From NCBI GenBank assembly GCA_947452005.1, contig CANGBC010000004.1:62001-126000 (forward strand): DNA of 64,000 bases. Direction: 5' to 3'. A model generated the notes under the pieces. That model did not search any database. It was given only the letters and a program-made list of their open reading frames with translations, and was not told the DNA's origin. The number at the start of each line of letters is the position of its first letter. Position 1 is the stretch's first letter. This DNA is from Beijerinckiaceae bacterium (lineage in GTDB: Bacteria; Pseudomonadota; Alphaproteobacteria; Rhizobiales; Beijerinckiaceae). This document shows positions 54,654-63,554 of the stretch, one piece after another. The translations under genes were made by a program, and so were the position numbers.

Positions 54654-56798
54654 ATGTCTCTCATCGTTATCCTCGACGACCGGATTTCGAACCGGAATAT
54701 TTTCGCCAAGCTCGCGGCCTCCATCGAAGAGGATGTGTCGGTGCGCGCTTTTGGTGATCCGCAAGAGGCTCTTGATTGGCTGGCCCATCACACGCCCGAT
54801 CTCGTCATCACCGATTATAAAATGCCCGAGATGGACGGCGCGGAATTCACCCGCCGCTTCCGTGAGCTGTCGTCCTCCATTGATGTCCCGGTCGTTGTCA
54901 TCACGGTCTATGAAGAGCGCAGCTTCCGTTTGCGTGCCTTGGAAGCAGGCGCAACCGATTTTCTCACCTCACCTGTCGATCACCATGAATTCGTCACGCG
55001 CGCCCGCAATTTGCTCAAAATGCACAAGCAGCAGAAATTGCTGGCGAGCCGTGCCATCTCACTGGAGCGCGAGCTGGAACATAGCGAGCGCTCGCGTGAA
55101 TGGGCGCTGCGCGATTCCCGCGAGCGCCTGGCGCAAGTCATCGACACGCTGCCAGTGGCTATTTGCGCGGCTGGCGCTGATGGCAATCTGATTTTTGTGA
55201 ACGCGTTCAAAGCGGAGCTGTTTGGCTTTGAGGCGGACAAGAAAATCGGCCAAAGTCTGACCGATGTGTTTGGCACTGAGGGCGGTGAGAGCATGATGGC
55301 GCTTAACCGCATGGTGTTTGAAACAGGCAAAGCGCTGCCGCCCTTTGAAGAAGAAATTGTCGATGCCAAGGGTGATGTGCGTGTTTTGCTGACCACCAAA
55401 TCGCCGCTGAAGGATCTGACGGGTCATGTGACAGCCGTCCTGACCAGCGCGCTTGATATTACGACCCGCAAAGCCACCGAAGGCCATTTGCGCCATCTCG
55501 CCCATCATGATCCGCTGACCGATCTGCCCAATCGCACGCTGCTGCATGAGCGCATGCGCCGCCTGATTGCCCGCTCACGGCGTGGTGATCAGCCCTTTGC
55601 CTTGCACATGCTCGATCTCGATGGATTCAAAGCGGTCAATGATCTGCTCGGCCATTCGGCCGGTGACCGGTTCATCCGCCATGTGGGTCAAAAATTGCGT
55701 CAGGCCATCCGCGCGCAAGATACTTTGGCGCGATTGGGGGGTGATGAATTTGCCATTCTGCAAGCACAGGTGACTTCTGGCGAAGATGCGGCAGATTTTG
55801 CGCGCCGTATTCTCGAGGTGGTCGCTGATGCCTCTGACTTTGAAAATAGCGGACTGCGCACCACCGCCAGTATCGGCATTGCCATTCATCCCGATGACGG
55901 GCTTGATGGTGAAGATCTGCTGAAAAATGCGGATCTCGCCATGTATCGCGCCAAAGGCGAGCAGGGCAATGCATTCTGCTTTTATGCCGCCGACATGCAG
56001 ATGCGCGCGCGCAACGATGCCATGCTGGATGGCGAATTGCGCCGTGCATTGGAGAATGGCGAATTCCTGCTCTATTATCAGCCGCAAATTGATATGCGCA
56101 GCGGCGACATTGTCGGTGCGGAAGCTCTGTTGCGCTGGAACCGACCGGGCAATGGCATAGTTGGGCCCGGCGTTTTTCTCACGCGCTGCGAAGAAAATGG
56201 CCTAATCATTCCCCTCAACGAATGGGTGTTGCGCGAAGCCTGTCGCGAAGCGCGCGGCTGGCAGGATATGGGATTAGCCTTGCGCGTCAGTGTCAATTTG
56301 TCGCCTGTGCAATTCCGCAAGCGCGATATGCCTGACCTCGTCAGAAGCGCGCTGCAGGAGAGCGGCCTGCCACCGGACTATCTGGATCTTGAATTGACCG
56401 AAAGCATCGTCGTCAGAGACTTTGATGCAGTCGCCGCCGACTTGCAGCAAATGCTGGATATGGGGGTGCATGTGTCGATTGATGATTTCGGCACGGGCTA
56501 TTCATCGCTGTCCTATGTCAAGAATTTCCCCGTTGACCGGCTCAAGGTTGATCAGAGTTTTGTGCGCAACCTCACGCAGGATTCCAATGATGCAGCGATT
56601 GTGCGTGCCATCGTCACGCTGGGGCATAGTCTGGGCCTGAAAGTTGTGGCCGAAGGCGTGGAGACGCCCGAGCAATTGGCGCGCCTGCGTGATGAAGGCT
56701 GCGATGAAGTGCAGGGCTATTATTTCGGCCGCCCCATGCCCGCGTGGGATTTCATTGCGCAGGCTGCGCAATGGCCGCAGCTGGCCGCCAGTGCGTGA
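54654..56798 (+). CDS. REC-PAS-GGDEF-EAL response regulator of the DSF locus
   Basis: A 714-residue cyclic-di-GMP enzyme. The N-terminal receiver (1-125) has the acceptor Asp54 in [12 protein letters not shown] and resembles the RpfG receiver (for instance [11 protein letters not shown] and [10 protein letters not shown]). The usual receiver lysine is replaced: the loop is TSPVD with Ser106. A PAS domain follows (about 160-270), then GGDEF with an intact [10 protein letters not shown] (about 275-435), then EAL with [17 protein letters not shown] and [12 protein letters not shown] (about 455-705). Both catalytic motifs are intact, so it may make and break c-di-GMP. It precedes the RpfC-like kinase by 8 bp. 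Confidence 0.92.
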
Positions 56799-56806
56799 GC
56801 GGCCTC

Positions 56807-58885
56807 ATGCGCGCCGAGCAGGGTCTCTTTGGCTGGGTCATGTCGCGCCTGTCCGCGCGCCCTGACAGCGAACATGAGCTGACGCTCAGCCGTTTGGCGC
56901 TCAGCATGATTGCCTTTCTGGCGCTGTTCATCGGCTATCTGGGCGGGAGCGACGAGCATCGGCATTATCTGGAACACGTCAGCACGTATTTCGTGGCTTT
57001 TACCGCAGCCACATTGTTTCTCTTTGCGCATCTGCTCTGGCGCCCGGGCGTCTCGCAGTTTCGGCGCTATCTGGGTATTCCGATTGATATTGGCTGCGTG
57101 GCCTATCTCATGCATTCGGGCGATGAGCTGACAGCTTTCACCTATCCGATTTTTCTTTGGGCAATTTTTGGCAATGGCTTCCGATTTGGCATCAAATATC
57201 TTTTTGTTGCCGCCATCCTTGGTTTTCTGGCCTTTCTGGCCGTCATCGTCACCACACCATTCTGGCGCGACAATCGTGAATTGAGCACGGGGCTTTTGCT
57301 GGCGCTCATTGTTTTGCCGGTCTATGTGTCCGCCCTCATTCGCCGCCTGTCAGAAGCCAAGCGGCAGGCGGAAGAGGCCAGCCGTGCAAAAAGCCTGTTT
57401 CTGGCATCGATCAGTCATGAATTGCGCACGCCGCTCAATGCTGTGATCGGTTTGAGCGATATGCTGTCCAGGACAAAGCTGGATGATGCGCAATCAGATA
57501 TGGCGCGCACGATTGGGAAATCAGGGCGCTCCCTGCTCGGGCTGATCAATTCATTACTCGATTTGTCGCGCATGGAAATCGGCAAAAAGCCGCAGATGAC
57601 CGTGTTCGATTTGCACGAATTGCTCAACGACATTCATGCCATGCTGGATGTGCAGGCAAAGGCAAAGACTATCGACTTGTTGTTGCATGTGGACCCGAAC
57701 GTGCCCCGTTTTGTTCTGGGCTCGATGCGCCATTTCGAAGAGGTGCTGATCAACCTGTGCGGCAATGCGGTCAAATTCACGACGCGCGGCTATGTGGGGA
57801 TGGCGGTGAAAATCGCATCGCTTGAGGGCGAACAGATTCGGTTGCGCTTTGAAGTGACGGATACTGGCATAGGCATTGCGCCCGAAGCGCAGGCGCGGAT
57901 TTTTGAATCGTTCACACAGGCCGATGAGACGATCATTGATCGTTTTGGCGGCACAGGGCTTGGTCTTTCGATTGCGCGGCAATTGGTCAATGCACATGGC
58001 GGCGAAATTGGCGTGCAGAGTGCGCCAGGGCGTGGCTCGACCTTCTGGTTTGAGATGGAAGTCGGGTTGGCTGAGGCGCCTGAGGTACAGCTGACAGACG
58101 AGACGCTTACCCCGACGCGCGCCCTGCGCATTCTGGTGGCAGAAGACAATCGCACCAATCAAATGGTGATCGCGCGCATTCTTGAACATGGCGGGCATTC
58201 GCTTGTCATCGTCGATAATGGTGATGCGGCGGTTGATCGCTTGCTGCAGGAGGATTTTGACCTGGTCTTGATGGACCTGAACATGCCGGTGATGAATGGG
58301 CTCGAGGCGTCGAAATTTTACGCTTTCGCGATGCTGGGGCAGGAGCGTGCGCCGATTGTTGCGCTCACCGCCGACGCGACGCCCGAAAGTGCGCGCAAAT
58401 GTGCGGAGGCTGGCATGGTGGCCTGTTTGAACAAGCCCATTGATGCCAAAGCCCTGCTCGAGGCGGTGGCGCGTTATGGGCGAGCGGTTGCGCATGTTCC
58501 TGTCGAACCCACCCTTGCATCAGTGCCCGCCGATGGGGCGGTTGCGGCGGTCAATCCGGACGCTTTGGCTGATCTTGAGAAATTGGGCGGCAAGCTTTTT
58601 GTGGGCGAGATTGTCACGCAATTTGTCAGCGATGCTGCGGGCGTTTTGCAAAAACTCGAAGAGGCGGTGCAGGCACAGGATGTCGCGAGCTTTCGCGATC
58701 ATGCCCATGCTTTGCGATCTTGTGCTGCCAATGTCGGCGCGCAGGCGATTTTTCAGCGTTGTCTGGCATTACGCGCGATTGAGCCCGATGCGCTGAGGCA
58801 CGATGGACAAGCGCAATTGCAGGCTCTGGAAGCCGAATTTGCGGCTGCGCGCGCGGCCTTGCTACCGCATATTCAGGCTGCGTGA
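56807..58885 (+). CDS. rpfC: RpfC-like hybrid sensor histidine kinase (DSF receptor)
   Basis: A 692-residue kinase. The N-terminal input region has five to six helices with the RpfC pattern: SARPDSEHELTLSRLALSM, then LWRPGVSQFRRYLG, AIFGNGFRFGIKYL and LSTGLLLALIVLPVYVSALI. HisKA follows (SISHELRTPLNAVIG, His about 204), HATPase (NAVKFT, DTGIGIAP, GGTGLGLSIA), a receiver (LVLMDLNMPVMNG, Asp about 489) and a C-terminal Hpt (AHALRSCAANVG, His about 633). In Xanthomonas RpfC senses the fatty acid signal DSF. ATG at 56807 is chosen; a GTG at 56795 overlapping the previous stop is possible. Confidence 0.88.
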   Translation: MRAEQGLFGWVMSRLSARPDSEHELTLSRLALSMIAFLALFIGYLGGSDEHRHYLEHVSTYFVAFTAATLFLFAHLLWRPGVSQFRRYLGIPIDIGCVAYLMHSGDELTAFTYPIFLWAIFGNGFRFGIKYLFVAAILGFLAFLAVIVTTPFWRDNRELSTGLLLALIVLPVYVSALIRRLSEAKRQAEEASRAKSLFLASISHELRTPLNAVIGLSDMLSRTKLDDAQSDMARTIGKSGRSLLGLINSLLDLSRMEIGKKPQMTVFDLHELLNDIHAMLDVQAKAKTIDLLLHVDPNVPRFVLGSMRHFEEVLINLCGNAVKFTTRGYVGMAVKIASLEGEQIRLRFEVTDTGIGIAPEAQARIFESFTQADETIIDRFGGTGLGLSIARQLVNAHGGEIGVQSAPGRGSTFWFEMEVGLAEAPEVQLTDETLTPTRALRILVAEDNRTNQMVIARILEHGGHSLVIVDNGDAAVDRLLQEDFDLVLMDLNMPVMNGLEASKFYAFAMLGQERAPIVALTADATPESARKCAEAGMVACLNKPIDAKALLEAVARYGRAVAHVPVEPTLASVPADGAVAAVNPDALADLEKLGGKLFVGEIVTQFVSDAAGVLQKLEEAVQAQDVASFRDHAHALRSCAANVGAQAIFQRCLALRAIEPDALRHDGQAQLQALEAEFAAARAALLPHIQAA

Positions 58886-58888
58886 ATC

Positions 58889-59857
58889 TTACGCGCGCGC
58901 AATGCGTTTGCGTTGCGCCGAGGCCAGGCGTTCCATGCGGCGCAAGTCGCTTTCGCCCAATTGCATGGCTGTGCCTACCCAGATATCGGTGATATCGTGC
59001 AATTCCTCAAAGCTGAGTGGCAGCACGCGTTGGCGGGCCTGCATCAAAGCCAGATGCAGATTGTAACGCGCGGTCCCGCCGGCAATGAATTTACGAACCT
59101 CTTCTTCGCCCGCACCATCCTCAGCCAGAATATCAACCACGCCCATTTCATGCAGCTCTTCGGCGGTGTAGATCTTGCCGGACAGGATCATGCGTTGTGC
59201 GGCGGTCATGCCGATCTTGCGCGTCAGCAGGCTCATGGCGCCCATGCCGGGGAAGAGGTTGAACAAGACCTCTGGCAGGCCCATGCGCGCTTTGCGCTCG
59301 GCCACCAGAATGTTGAACGACATGGCGCCTTCAAATCCCCCGCCCAGCGCATCGCCTTGCACAAGGCCAATGGTGAGCACAGAGGAGTCGAATCCCGTCG
59401 CCATGTGATAGGCGACATCGCAGCAATCAACCGCGTAAGCTCGCAAGCCCTCACGGTCGCTGTTGCGGATCATGGCGACGAAGTGGTCGAGATCGCCGCC
59501 CAGATTGTAAATGCCGGGAAGGTCGGATGCGCCGACGAAAAAGTGCAGCTTGTCCGCACCTGTTCCGGCCTGCGTATAAGTCTGAATGGCACGGCGCAGG
59601 CTGATCAGTTCACGCAGCAGCGAGGGGGTGAAACTGGGCGGGCCAGACGGGCGCATGGCGCACCACATGGCTTTGGCGGGCGCATCAAAACGAATGTTGA
59701 GCTCACGCAGGCCTTGCGGCGGGAACGGTGCGGGTGCCGCCTCGATCCGTTTGAGCTCGGACAGGCGTGGCCTGATCCGTTCCGCTCTCATAAAGGGCAG
59801 GGCGTCGCCCTGAGTGACGCGCAATTGCCCGGCCGTTGAAAGATCAAAATACGCCAT
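58889..59857 (-). CDS. rpfF: RpfF-like DSF synthase (crotonase family)
   Basis: Makes the diffusible cis-2-unsaturated fatty acid signal from acyl-ACP. The 322-residue protein has the RpfF hallmarks NLGGDLDHFV near residue 118, GDALGGGFEGAMSFN with catalytic Glu176, and GLPEVLFNLFPGMGAMS with catalytic Glu196; the 20-residue spacing equals that of Glu141 and Glu161 in Xanthomonas RpfF. GGGGGAG precedes the ATG. It converges on the RpfC-like gene with only 3 bp between stops. It is longer than the Xanthomonas enzyme, with an N-terminal extension. Confidence 0.9.
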   Translation of the reverse strand: MAYFDLSTAGQLRVTQGDALPFMRAERIRPRLSELKRIEAAPAPFPPQGLRELNIRFDAPAKAMWCAMRPSGPPSFTPSLLRELISLRRAIQTYTQAGTGADKLHFFVGASDLPGIYNLGGDLDHFVAMIRNSDREGLRAYAVDCCDVAYHMATGFDSSVLTIGLVQGDALGGGFEGAMSFNILVAERKARMGLPEVLFNLFPGMGAMSLLTRKIGMTAAQRMILSGKIYTAEELHEMGVVDILAEDGAGEEEVRKFIAGGTARYNLHLALMQARQRVLPLSFEELHDITDIWVGTAMQLGESDLRRMERLASAQRKRIARA

Positions 59858-61703: not shown

Positions 61704-63554
61704 TCAGGCCACAGCCTGTTGCGTCGCCGGGCTCGTGCCACGGCTCAGCGCATGCAGACATGTGTCGAGCGCTCCGGCCAGACTGGCAGCCTGAAAATCA
61801 GCACCCGCGTCGCGCGCCAGAGCGGTCACGCTGGTTTGCGTGTCTTGCGGCAACCAGAAACACGCGATGATTTTGACGCCCTCACAGCGCCGACGCAGGC
61901 GGCGCACGGCATAGCGCAATTGCGCGGTCGATATTTCTGCATCAAGCGATGACAGGCAAATGGTCTCGATGTTTGGCGCACTGCCTTGCGGGCTGCGCCC
62001 AGGCGCCAGTGCGTCGGCAGCTGCGGCTGTCGCGGGGATGCCGCTCTTGCGCAAAATCTGCGCAAGCATGGCTGCAGCGGCTTCATCCAAGGTTGTGCGT
62101 GCAGCCAGACACAGGATCGGCGTCTGGCTTGTGGGCGCGCTTGTGTTGGATGGCAACGGCACGTCGTCGAGGTCGTCGATCACTTCAAACAATGTGTTGC
62201 GCAGCGCTTGTTGTTGATCGCTATCGAGCAGGCCACGGCGCAAATCTGTTTGCGCCAGTCGCAGCGCGGGCACGGCGATTTCATCGTAAAAACTGATCAG
62301 ACTTTGGTTCTTGAGATTTTCCTGTGCCTGTTCGGCGACTTCTGAAGGGTCACCCGCCAGAACGCGCTGATAAAAACTTTCTTGTGGCGTGAGTGCGGGC
62401 AGGTCGCTCAGAATGATATTGAGAAAATTCAGCGCCTCGACATGCTGGCCCAGTACGACCAGACAGACTGTGAGGGGTGTGGACAGCAACAGGCCAATTG
62501 GTCCCCACAGCCATGTCCAGAAGGTGGCCGCCACAACGACGGCAATTGGCGAAATGCCAGTCGAATGGCCATAAAGCAAAGGTTCGATAACCTGACCGGT
62601 GAGCGGCTCGAGAATTAAAAACAGCGCAATGGTCATTATGACCATGCTCCAGCCCGGATCAACGGCGGCTGCGAGCGCGACAGGCCCCAGCGCTGACACC
62701 AGCGCGCCGATATAGGGGACGAAGCGCAGGATCGCGGCCAACAATCCCCACAAGAGCGGACTCGGCACACCGATCAACCACAGGCCGATGCCGACAATCA
62801 CGCCGAAGCTGGCATTGAGCATCGTCTGCACCAGAAAGAAACGGCTCAGCCGAACGGCCGCATCATCCAGCGCCAAAGTGGTGCGATGCAAATCACCTCC
62901 ACTCAGCAGACGGATCATGCGATCACGCAAATCCTCGCGCTGTATGAGAATGAAGACCGTGAAAATCGCCACGATGCCCGTGGTCGCCAAAGGCTCCAGC
63001 ACAGTGGCTGCCACGCTGCGCAACATGTCGAGGGGGCCGGGCGATGGCTGGTGGACTTCGACGGGTACGGGTTCGGGCGGGGGCGGTGAGCCGTCTGTTG
63101 GTGGCGCAGCGCGTGGCGCTGGGCGCCCACTCTCGCCCAGCGAGCGCAACAGGCTGCTCGCGCGCCCGATGACGCCAGAGGGCGTCGCAGCCGCGCGCAA
63201 CGCGTCTGCTTTTTGCAGGATCGTTGTCTGATAGCGCGGAAATTGCGAGGCCAGATCTGAGACCTGCCGCGCCAAAATCGTGCTCAGGCCAAAGATAAAC
63301 CCGAAGGCCACAGCCGCGACCAAGAAAACGCTTAAACCGCGTGAGACATTCCACGCGCGCAGCCGCAATACGGCAGGTGCCAGAACAAAGCTGAGGAGCA
63401 CGGCGAGCACGATCGGCACGAAAATTTGTCGGCCAAACCACAGAGCGGTAATGGTGAAAGCGCAGACCGCCAAGCCGGTCAACGCGTCATGGCCCGGTGG
63501 GCGGGTGAGGCGCAATCGGCCGCGTGTTTGTCCTGTTGGAATAGGCTCGCTCAT
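61704..63554 (-). CDS. AI-2E-family transporter with long C-terminal extension
   Basis: A 616-residue membrane protein. Residues 25-400 follow the AI-2E/PerM plan: helices at the start (LTGLAVCAFTITALWFG), a soluble loop rich in Pro (about 145-180), and helices with WGLLAAILRFVPYIGALVSA near 270 and LWGPIGLLLSTPLTVCLVVL near 350. The remaining 215 residues are soluble and end in a Rossmann-like module (PILCLAARTTLDEAAAAMLA, then KIIACFWLPQDTQTS). Normal members are about 350-400 residues. Substrate is unknown. Confidence 0.85.
   Translation of the reverse strand: MSEPIPTGQTRGRLRLTRPPGHDALTGLAVCAFTITALWFGRQIFVPIVLAVLLSFVLAPAVLRLRAWNVSRGLSVFLVAAVAFGFIFGLSTILARQVSDLASQFPRYQTTILQKADALRAAATPSGVIGRASSLLRSLGESGRPAPRAAPPTDGSPPPPEPVPVEVHQPSPGPLDMLRSVAATVLEPLATTGIVAIFTVFILIQREDLRDRMIRLLSGGDLHRTTLALDDAAVRLSRFFLVQTMLNASFGVIVGIGLWLIGVPSPLLWGLLAAILRFVPYIGALVSALGPVALAAAVDPGWSMVIMTIALFLILEPLTGQVIEPLLYGHSTGISPIAVVVAATFWTWLWGPIGLLLSTPLTVCLVVLGQHVEALNFLNIILSDLPALTPQESFYQRVLAGDPSEVAEQAQENLKNQSLISFYDEIAVPALRLAQTDLRRGLLDSDQQQALRNTLFEVIDDLDDVPLPSNTSAPTSQTPILCLAARTTLDEAAAAMLAQILRKSGIPATAAAADALAPGRSPQGSAPNIETICLSSLDAEISTAQLRYAVRRLRRRCEGVKIIACFWLPQDTQTSVTALARDAGADFQAASLAGALDTCLHALSRGTSPATQQAVA

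Follow-up and report, generated by a model that had tools for sequence, protein, structure and literature searches.

A probable DSF-type signalling locus of a Beijerinckiaceae bacterium with a GGDEF-EAL protein in the rpfG position

Perception of the diffusible signal factor (DSF) is described in the available part of a review (PMC4504480) as following two core pathways, RpfC-RpfG with an HD-GYP output and RpfR; the same text places the Xanthomonas rpfG-rpfC genes convergent to rpfF. Leptospirillum carries an rpfFCG locus with an HD-GYP output and all genes in one direction, and DSF signalling has been studied experimentally there, as the accessible part of PMC8357829 has it. We analyzed a three-gene locus in a 64,000-nucleotide stretch of DNA (hereafter the window) from contig CANGBC010000004.1 of an uncultured Beijerinckiaceae bacterium, whose genome assembly spans 2.03 Mb and is 58% complete. 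Its nearest RpfF records belong to Rhizobiales and Beijerinckiaceae metagenome assemblies (67-83% identity). We consider it likely that this is a locus for DSF-type cell-cell signalling with GGDEF-EAL in place of HD-GYP. Judged by its sequence, the locus is a variant of RpfF-RpfC-RpfG signalling, and its GGDEF-EAL output is one state of a wider output exchange. The open-licence literature, covered mostly through search listings, yielded no account of such an output at an rpf locus of Alphaproteobacteria.

With the Xanthomonas system the locus shares the RpfF glutamate pair, the RpfC hybrid kinase, most of the DSF-sensor motif, a receiver of the RpfG kind and an rpfGC pair convergent to rpfF. 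It differs in having PAS-GGDEF-EAL, Ser at the beta-5 lysine position of the receiver and Leu at sensor residue 22, whereas Xanthomonas has HD-GYP, Lys and Gln22. The RpfF-RpfR systems of Burkholderia and Cronobacter likewise have rpfF beside a convergent PAS-GGDEF-EAL gene, but RpfR lacks the receiver and the RpfC partner that are both present in the window. RpfF, RpfC and RpfG also stand together in Leptospirillum. Finally, by the description in the available text of PMC4504480, Xanthomonas RpfS is a PAS_4 histidine kinase that binds DSF, which resembles the window in its PAS_4 domain and DSF setting and resembles the receiver-PAS-kinases of other Alphaproteobacteria in having PAS before the kinase.

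The three genes of the locus were confirmed. The first (P0001, 714 residues; 54654..56798, plus strand), defined by translation, Pfam and orthologs, occupies the rpfG position. It encodes an RpfG-type receiver (Response_reg, residues 4-117, 54663..55004; acceptor D54, S106 at the beta-5 lysine site), a PAS_4 domain (residues 164-273, 55143..55472), a GGDEF domain (residues 283-439, 55500..55970; GGDEF motif 362-366, I-site RAQD 353-356 intact) and an EAL domain (residues 461-694, 56034..56735; EALLRW, with the motif at 490, and the other checked catalytic residues intact), all above the Pfam cut-offs. The second gene encodes an RpfC-like hybrid histidine kinase (P0002; 56807..58885, plus strand) with a membrane region followed by HisKA, HATPase_c, Response_reg and Hpt domains, each above its Pfam cut-off; the best PDB match of its receiver is RpfC (3m6m_D, E-value 9.4e-27). 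The third encodes an RpfF-like crotonase (P0003, 322 residues; 58889..59857, minus strand), identified by profiles and PDB matches. Its best PDB matches are 6dgn (RpfF), 5fus, 7zq7 and 3m6m (RpfF), and it passes NCBIfam PRK08788 with 348.8 bits against a cut-off of 177. E176 and E196, 20 residues apart, align to the same two glutamates of 3m6m, and the flanking motifs match.

Thus, the RpfF with its glutamate pair, the RpfC-like hybrid kinase and the RpfG-like receiver joined to PAS-GGDEF-EAL, all proposed in a preliminary description of this DNA, were recovered; the receiver lies not far from RpfG in trees, and the three-gene neighbourhood is conserved in relatives. The same description argued for joint action from gene order and an 8-bp spacing. 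The open frame of P0002 (56744-58885) likely starts at ATG 56807 or GTG 56795. The ATG leaves the 8-bp gap (56799-56806) after the P0001 stop (56798), and the GTG would overlap that stop. The spacing therefore stands for the first two genes, but rpfF is on the opposite strand, convergent, with the rpfC and rpfF stops 3 bp apart.

The P0001 receiver belongs to one clade with the RpfG receivers. The set of RpfG-type receivers is not blind, since BLAST identity to the window's receiver, 36% or more, decided which ones were included. In a quick tree, 72 of them with all outputs form one clade, supported at 98 by the Shimodaira-Hasegawa-like approximate likelihood ratio test (SH-aLRT), against 61 other receivers: 25 from the window's genome, seven RpfC receivers and 29 taken from the 83 matches that a single gammaproteobacterium gave, with one duplicate among the rows. 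For nine of the 72, neither rpfC nor rpfF lies in the stretch. All trees were built by the quick method except two careful receiver trees, and the receiver alignments are short in columns. The first careful tree, with 12 further receivers and a bootstrap that had not settled, unites 53 RpfG-type rows (100/98) and places 38 Ser-type alphaproteobacterial rows (99/97) within a 45-row group that includes HD-GYP RpfG (92/89). The second lacks five rows of the first (L224, L226, L229, L233, L234; L and G numbers denote loci and genomes) and adds the 20 nearest other receivers. It places the window receiver and the RpfG receivers in a 54-row clade (99/95), and keeps the alphaproteobacterial group (33 rows, 96/89) and the main GGDEF-EAL group (15 rows, 99/95). 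Because these nearest receivers were added, the relationship is worded as membership of the same clade, weaker than sisterhood to RpfG.

In the PDB the best match of the P0001 receiver is PleD, a diguanylate cyclase and c-di-GMP response regulator. However, the 12 PleD-like receivers, so labelled from resemblance and frame length, keep the lysine and fall outside the 54-row clade, and on the tree with the 20 nearest receivers the PleD origin suggested by the PDB matches was rejected. In both careful trees, GGDEF-EAL also occurs on receivers outside the main GGDEF-EAL group, in L100 and its family mates; there was therefore more than one gain of this output, or more than one loss in other lineages.

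The beta-5 lysine position is altered throughout the alphaproteobacterial group. Of 61 alphaproteobacterial RpfG-type receivers, which cover every output and of which 52 stand at loci that include rpfC or rpfF and 9 do not, 60 have Ser and one has Thr at this site; all 61 retain the acceptor Asp and the Thr. Elsewhere, the 11 HD-GYP RpfG receivers divide into 7 with Lys and 4 with Arg, Lys stands in all 61 background receivers and in the 20 nearest other receivers, and one further GGDEF-EAL relative (L237) has Ala. Since Ser or Thr is found with every output, the lysine was probably lost before the outputs were exchanged within Alphaproteobacteria. Phosphorylation of the P0001 receiver is possible; with Ser at beta-5 it may be phosphorylated atypically or act by binding, both of which are considered because the lysine is replaced.

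Pfam detects no HD-GYP output domain in P0001, which has GGDEF-EAL instead. It is therefore not an RpfG by definition, and may work like one by virtue of its position and receiver. A separate HD-GYP protein within the genus as the true RpfG was rejected: HD_5 was detected in 5 of 51 genomes and in none of the contigs of the window's genome, which is 58% complete. Among 43 receiver-GGDEF(-EAL) proteins, three lack EAL and two are cut in EAL by a contig end; the checked EAL catalytic residues are intact in all 38 complete domains. The GGDEF motif is intact in 38 of the 43 and altered in five, and the I-site is variable; L100 has RSDEF in place of GGDEF and an intact EAL. As EAL is fully intact and GGDEF altered in some members, the favoured direction of the output would be signal-driven c-di-GMP hydrolysis by EAL, as for HD-GYP RpfG. 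The loss of EAL in L004, L130 and L131 counts against hydrolysis. Two loci carry decaying outputs on a conserved receiver (L004 11070-12476, L131 8721-10046), with EAL gone and GGDEF altered to GGDTF and DSDEI, respectively.

The regulator could alternatively be an RpfR-type receptor of the BDSF signal that gained a receiver, its PAS binding the fatty acid directly and RpfC being accessory. Both proteins are PAS-GGDEF-EAL and, by the available part of PMC4504480, RpfR too is encoded convergently to rpfF; the window PAS is moreover a PAS_4 domain, the kind with which, in the same text, Xanthomonas RpfS binds DSF. However, in a quick GGDEF-EAL tree that sampled few outside proteins, the four RpfR-type proteins (L135-L138, labelled from architecture and gene order) form a separate clade with support of 98, the clade of receiver-bearing proteins itself being supported by 86. 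BLAST at 1e-5 matches the window PAS to none of these four proteins, whose loci show no RpfC, and the domain resembles the PAS that precedes histidine kinases in receiver-PAS-kinase proteins from other Alphaproteobacteria. On the tree and the lack of PAS similarity, an RpfR origin of the GGDEF-EAL protein was rejected, and we regard an RpfR-like mode of action as quite improbable.

In Xanthomonas RpfC, a 22-residue sensor requires R15, D17, S18, E19 and Q22 for DSF sensing (PMC5391125). The membrane-proximal segment RPDSEHEL of P0002 keeps R, D, S and E, four of these five residues; its RPDSEHE (56858..56878, plus strand) is the counterpart of sensor residues 15-21, and the next residue is Leu. 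With the window's own kinase left out, the R-x-D-S/T-E motif is present in 25 of 31 kinases at GGDEF-EAL loci, 15 of 16 at receiver-histidine kinase loci (the single miss is the second kinase of L098) and 8 of 11 at HD-GYP loci. In a quick RpfC tree, 31 of the 32 kinases of GGDEF-EAL loci fall into one 34-row clade (support 99), with L100 elsewhere; the long-branched row L098 may be that locus's second, other kinase. Two Inquilinus loci hold extra short genes (L007 11761-12663 and 12923-13750, L008 5989-6783 and 7027-7899) that encode an RpfC-type membrane region and sensor motif, with the kinase reduced to a stub. They recall descriptions of Xanthomonas RpfH.

The range of outputs was surveyed in an even sample of 385 alphaproteobacterial genomes, of which 24 have an RpfF-like gene (E-value 1e-40; 25 matches, the window's included). 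Of these 25 loci, 15 have a receiver-histidine kinase in the rpfG position, two GGDEF-EAL, one a HisKA_2 protein and none HD-GYP, and nothing was found there in seven. At 14 of the 24 loci other than the window's, the gene immediately preceding rpfC, in the same orientation, encodes the receiver-histidine kinase (L083, L085-L089, L091-L098; the PAS of L092 and L098 was not matched by BLAST), and in L082 it is divergent. L100 carries REC-PAS-GGDEF-EAL, and L084 has REC-PAS-HisKA_2 by Pfam beside an rpfF with no recognised rpfC. At the receiver-histidine kinase loci, DSF output apparently feeds a second phosphorelay. HisKA_2 kinases with an RpfG-type receiver and PAS (L013 6332-7744, L084 10349-11884) lie on the far side of rpfF and are divergent. 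When these genomes were searched with just the receiver, a Ser/Thr receiver of at least 46% identity was present in 22 of 24 RpfF-positive and 3 of 361 RpfF-negative genomes (Fisher 1.7e-30, ignoring relatedness). Named lineages with REC-PAS-GGDEF-EAL loci are Acidisoma, Inquilinus, Acidocella, Ancylobacter, Pseudovibrio and Caldovatus. Ancylobacter, a culturable relative, shares the window's three genes (L010-L012). Gene order varies, the regulator-kinase pair of Acidisoma (L006) being divergent from rpfF.

In a sample of the phylum, RpfF was found in 63 of 398 genomes, and 20 of the 64 matches were read. Of these loci, seven have REC-HD-GYP, three REC-PAS-GGDEF-EAL and two rpfC with no receiver found; the rest comprise seven with RpfF beside GGDEF-EAL and no rpfC (four of them RpfR-type) and one with another kinase. 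Comparison of these relatives suggests that the output piece was exchanged on more than one occasion, with the signal maker and the sensor remaining recognisable. In two alphaproteobacterial loci (L147 6018-9410, L054 427-3780), a GGDEF-EAL gene converges on rpfF, and the stretch shows no rpfC. The L147 protein is PAS_7-GGDEF-EAL by Pfam, and both proteins fall outside the RpfR-type clade, perhaps as a second RpfR-like arrangement. Rows L026-L080 (short stretches, most refetched longer) were left out of the neighbourhood, motif and quick-tree counts, and L105 and L126, which share contigs with L005 and L004, out of some counts. The RpfF and RpfC trees also omit L002, L025 and L103; the GGDEF-EAL tree includes L052-L054 and omits the near-copies or repeats L011, L106, L110, L118, L120, L210 and L225.

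Parts of the preliminary description have to be revised accordingly. GGDEF-EAL had been taken as the alphaproteobacterial replacement of HD-GYP, but it stands at 2 of the 25 RpfF loci against 15 with a receiver-histidine kinase; a dual synthase/hydrolase had been envisaged, but EAL (38/38) is better conserved than GGDEF (38/43). With no beta-5 lysine in the receiver, ordinary phospho-activation is not given.

In the mechanism that we propose, the RpfC-like kinase would sense the signal through its N-terminal RPDSEHE, a motif observed here with binding assumed from Xanthomonas. The unstimulated kinase, by family knowledge and the 3m6m complex, probably keeps RpfF inactive through its own receiver. 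From there the signal would pass through HisKA, REC and Hpt and reach the RpfG-type receiver encoded by the adjacent gene; this receiver would drive GGDEF-EAL rather than HD-GYP. EAL would have replaced HD-GYP with the sign of the response, c-di-GMP hydrolysis, kept; PAS may supply an additional input, and GGDEF may tune the output or persist as a residual synthase. Across Alphaproteobacteria the receiver, mostly with PAS, would be the carrier of an output that differs by lineage: GGDEF-EAL, a HisKA kinase, a HisKA_2 kinase or none. If this is true, Alphaproteobacteria couple further outputs to a sensor and receiver of the same kind, and one of these outputs is a kinase, not a c-di-GMP enzyme. 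Output swapping would become testable, naturally occurring variation at a single residue could be tied to the mapped motif RPDSEHE, and receivers that lack the beta-5 lysine would form a natural collection in which to ask how such proteins signal. More tentatively, the lysine-less receiver may be a plug-in platform, read by conformation or partner binding and not by classical phosphorylation, on which HD-GYP substitutes were repeatedly exchanged, with the loss of Gln22 in the main GGDEF-EAL kinase clade marking a changed ligand; we hold this joint reading to be possible and rather doubtful. Under it, a similar fatty acid signal would set c-di-GMP in some lineages and start a second phosphorelay in others.

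Several observations weigh against DSF-type signalling through an RpfG-like route. Ten lysine-bearing receivers not tied to rpf loci lie inside the 54-row clade of the second careful tree, which settles neither the order of the HD-GYP groups nor exclusive sisterhood to RpfG. S106 in place of the beta-5 lysine could mean that the P0001 receiver is not phosphorylated. Seven of the 25 even-sample RpfF loci showed no complete rpfC-receiver pair; three of them (L081, L099, L103) reach a contig edge or stop close to it, L081 within the tail of an rpfC-like gene, and four of their genomes hold the receiver elsewhere (G207, G277 and G386 with a kinase, G293 with GGDEF-EAL). RpfC is described as having five transmembrane helices, and hydropathy gives four hydrophobic segments of 26-33 residues in P0002. 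The Gln22 counterpart in P0002 is Leu, though Gln is needed for sensing in Xanthomonas, and P0003 scores 206.4 bits against the 550 of the NCBI RpfF equivalog cut-off. These last two points would also fit a locus that makes and senses some fatty acid other than those of the cis-2 DSF group, with an altered RpfF product and a co-changed RpfC. Among motif-bearing kinases, the Gln22 site holds Gln in 1 of 25 at GGDEF-EAL loci (L100), 14 of 15 at receiver-histidine kinase loci and 8 of 8 at HD-GYP loci, and Q22A weakens DSF sensing in Xanthomonas according to the accessible text of PMC5391125. However, the catalytic glutamate pair of P0003 and its flanking motifs match 3m6m, and because 31 of the 32 GGDEF-EAL-locus kinases share one clade, the Gln22 change may be a single event without meaning. 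We consider such a ligand unlikely.

Conservation within the genus also bears on DSF-type signalling as the function of the locus. Among the matches listed for 37 genus genomes, the window's included, the regulator or a piece of it is present in 27 and RpfF in 18, all 18 with the regulator or a contig-cut piece. The regulator is contig-cut in G012, G017 and G034 and lacks EAL in G020, G022 and G031; the G017 RpfF is partial and just under the cut-off, and in G009, G012 and G017 RpfF is on another contig than the regulator. A further point to be set against the proposed function is that RpfF was not detected in nine of the 27 regulator-bearing genomes. In seven of these congeners (L110, L111, L113, L123, L124, L130, L131), an Hpt or REC-Hpt protein stands where rpfC would be, with no kinase core detected; the remaining two run out at a contig edge. 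The Hpt domains are 39-53% identical to that of P0002, the proteins look like RpfC remnants, and six of the seven keep the same pterin dehydratase gene beyond the Hpt gene; because the remnant and this gene remain, the loss of rpfF and the kinase core seems to have happened in situ. Since the regulator is kept beside the Hpt protein, it can apparently work without DSF. It might thus be driven mainly by other kinases, with the rpfC/rpfF adjacency as ancestral baggage, and a receiver with no beta-5 lysine would suit this. However, no RpfF was seen in these genomes without the regulator or a piece, the retained Hpt suggests selection for phosphotransfer to the receiver, and kinase and output tend to travel together in the RpfC tree. 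We give this explanation little credence.

Among the relatives' loci searched, an AI-2E family transporter gene was found in one (L107) alone. It was therefore not counted as part of the locus and was rejected as its signal transporter; in the window, this gene lies near the signalling locus at 61704-63554 on the minus strand.

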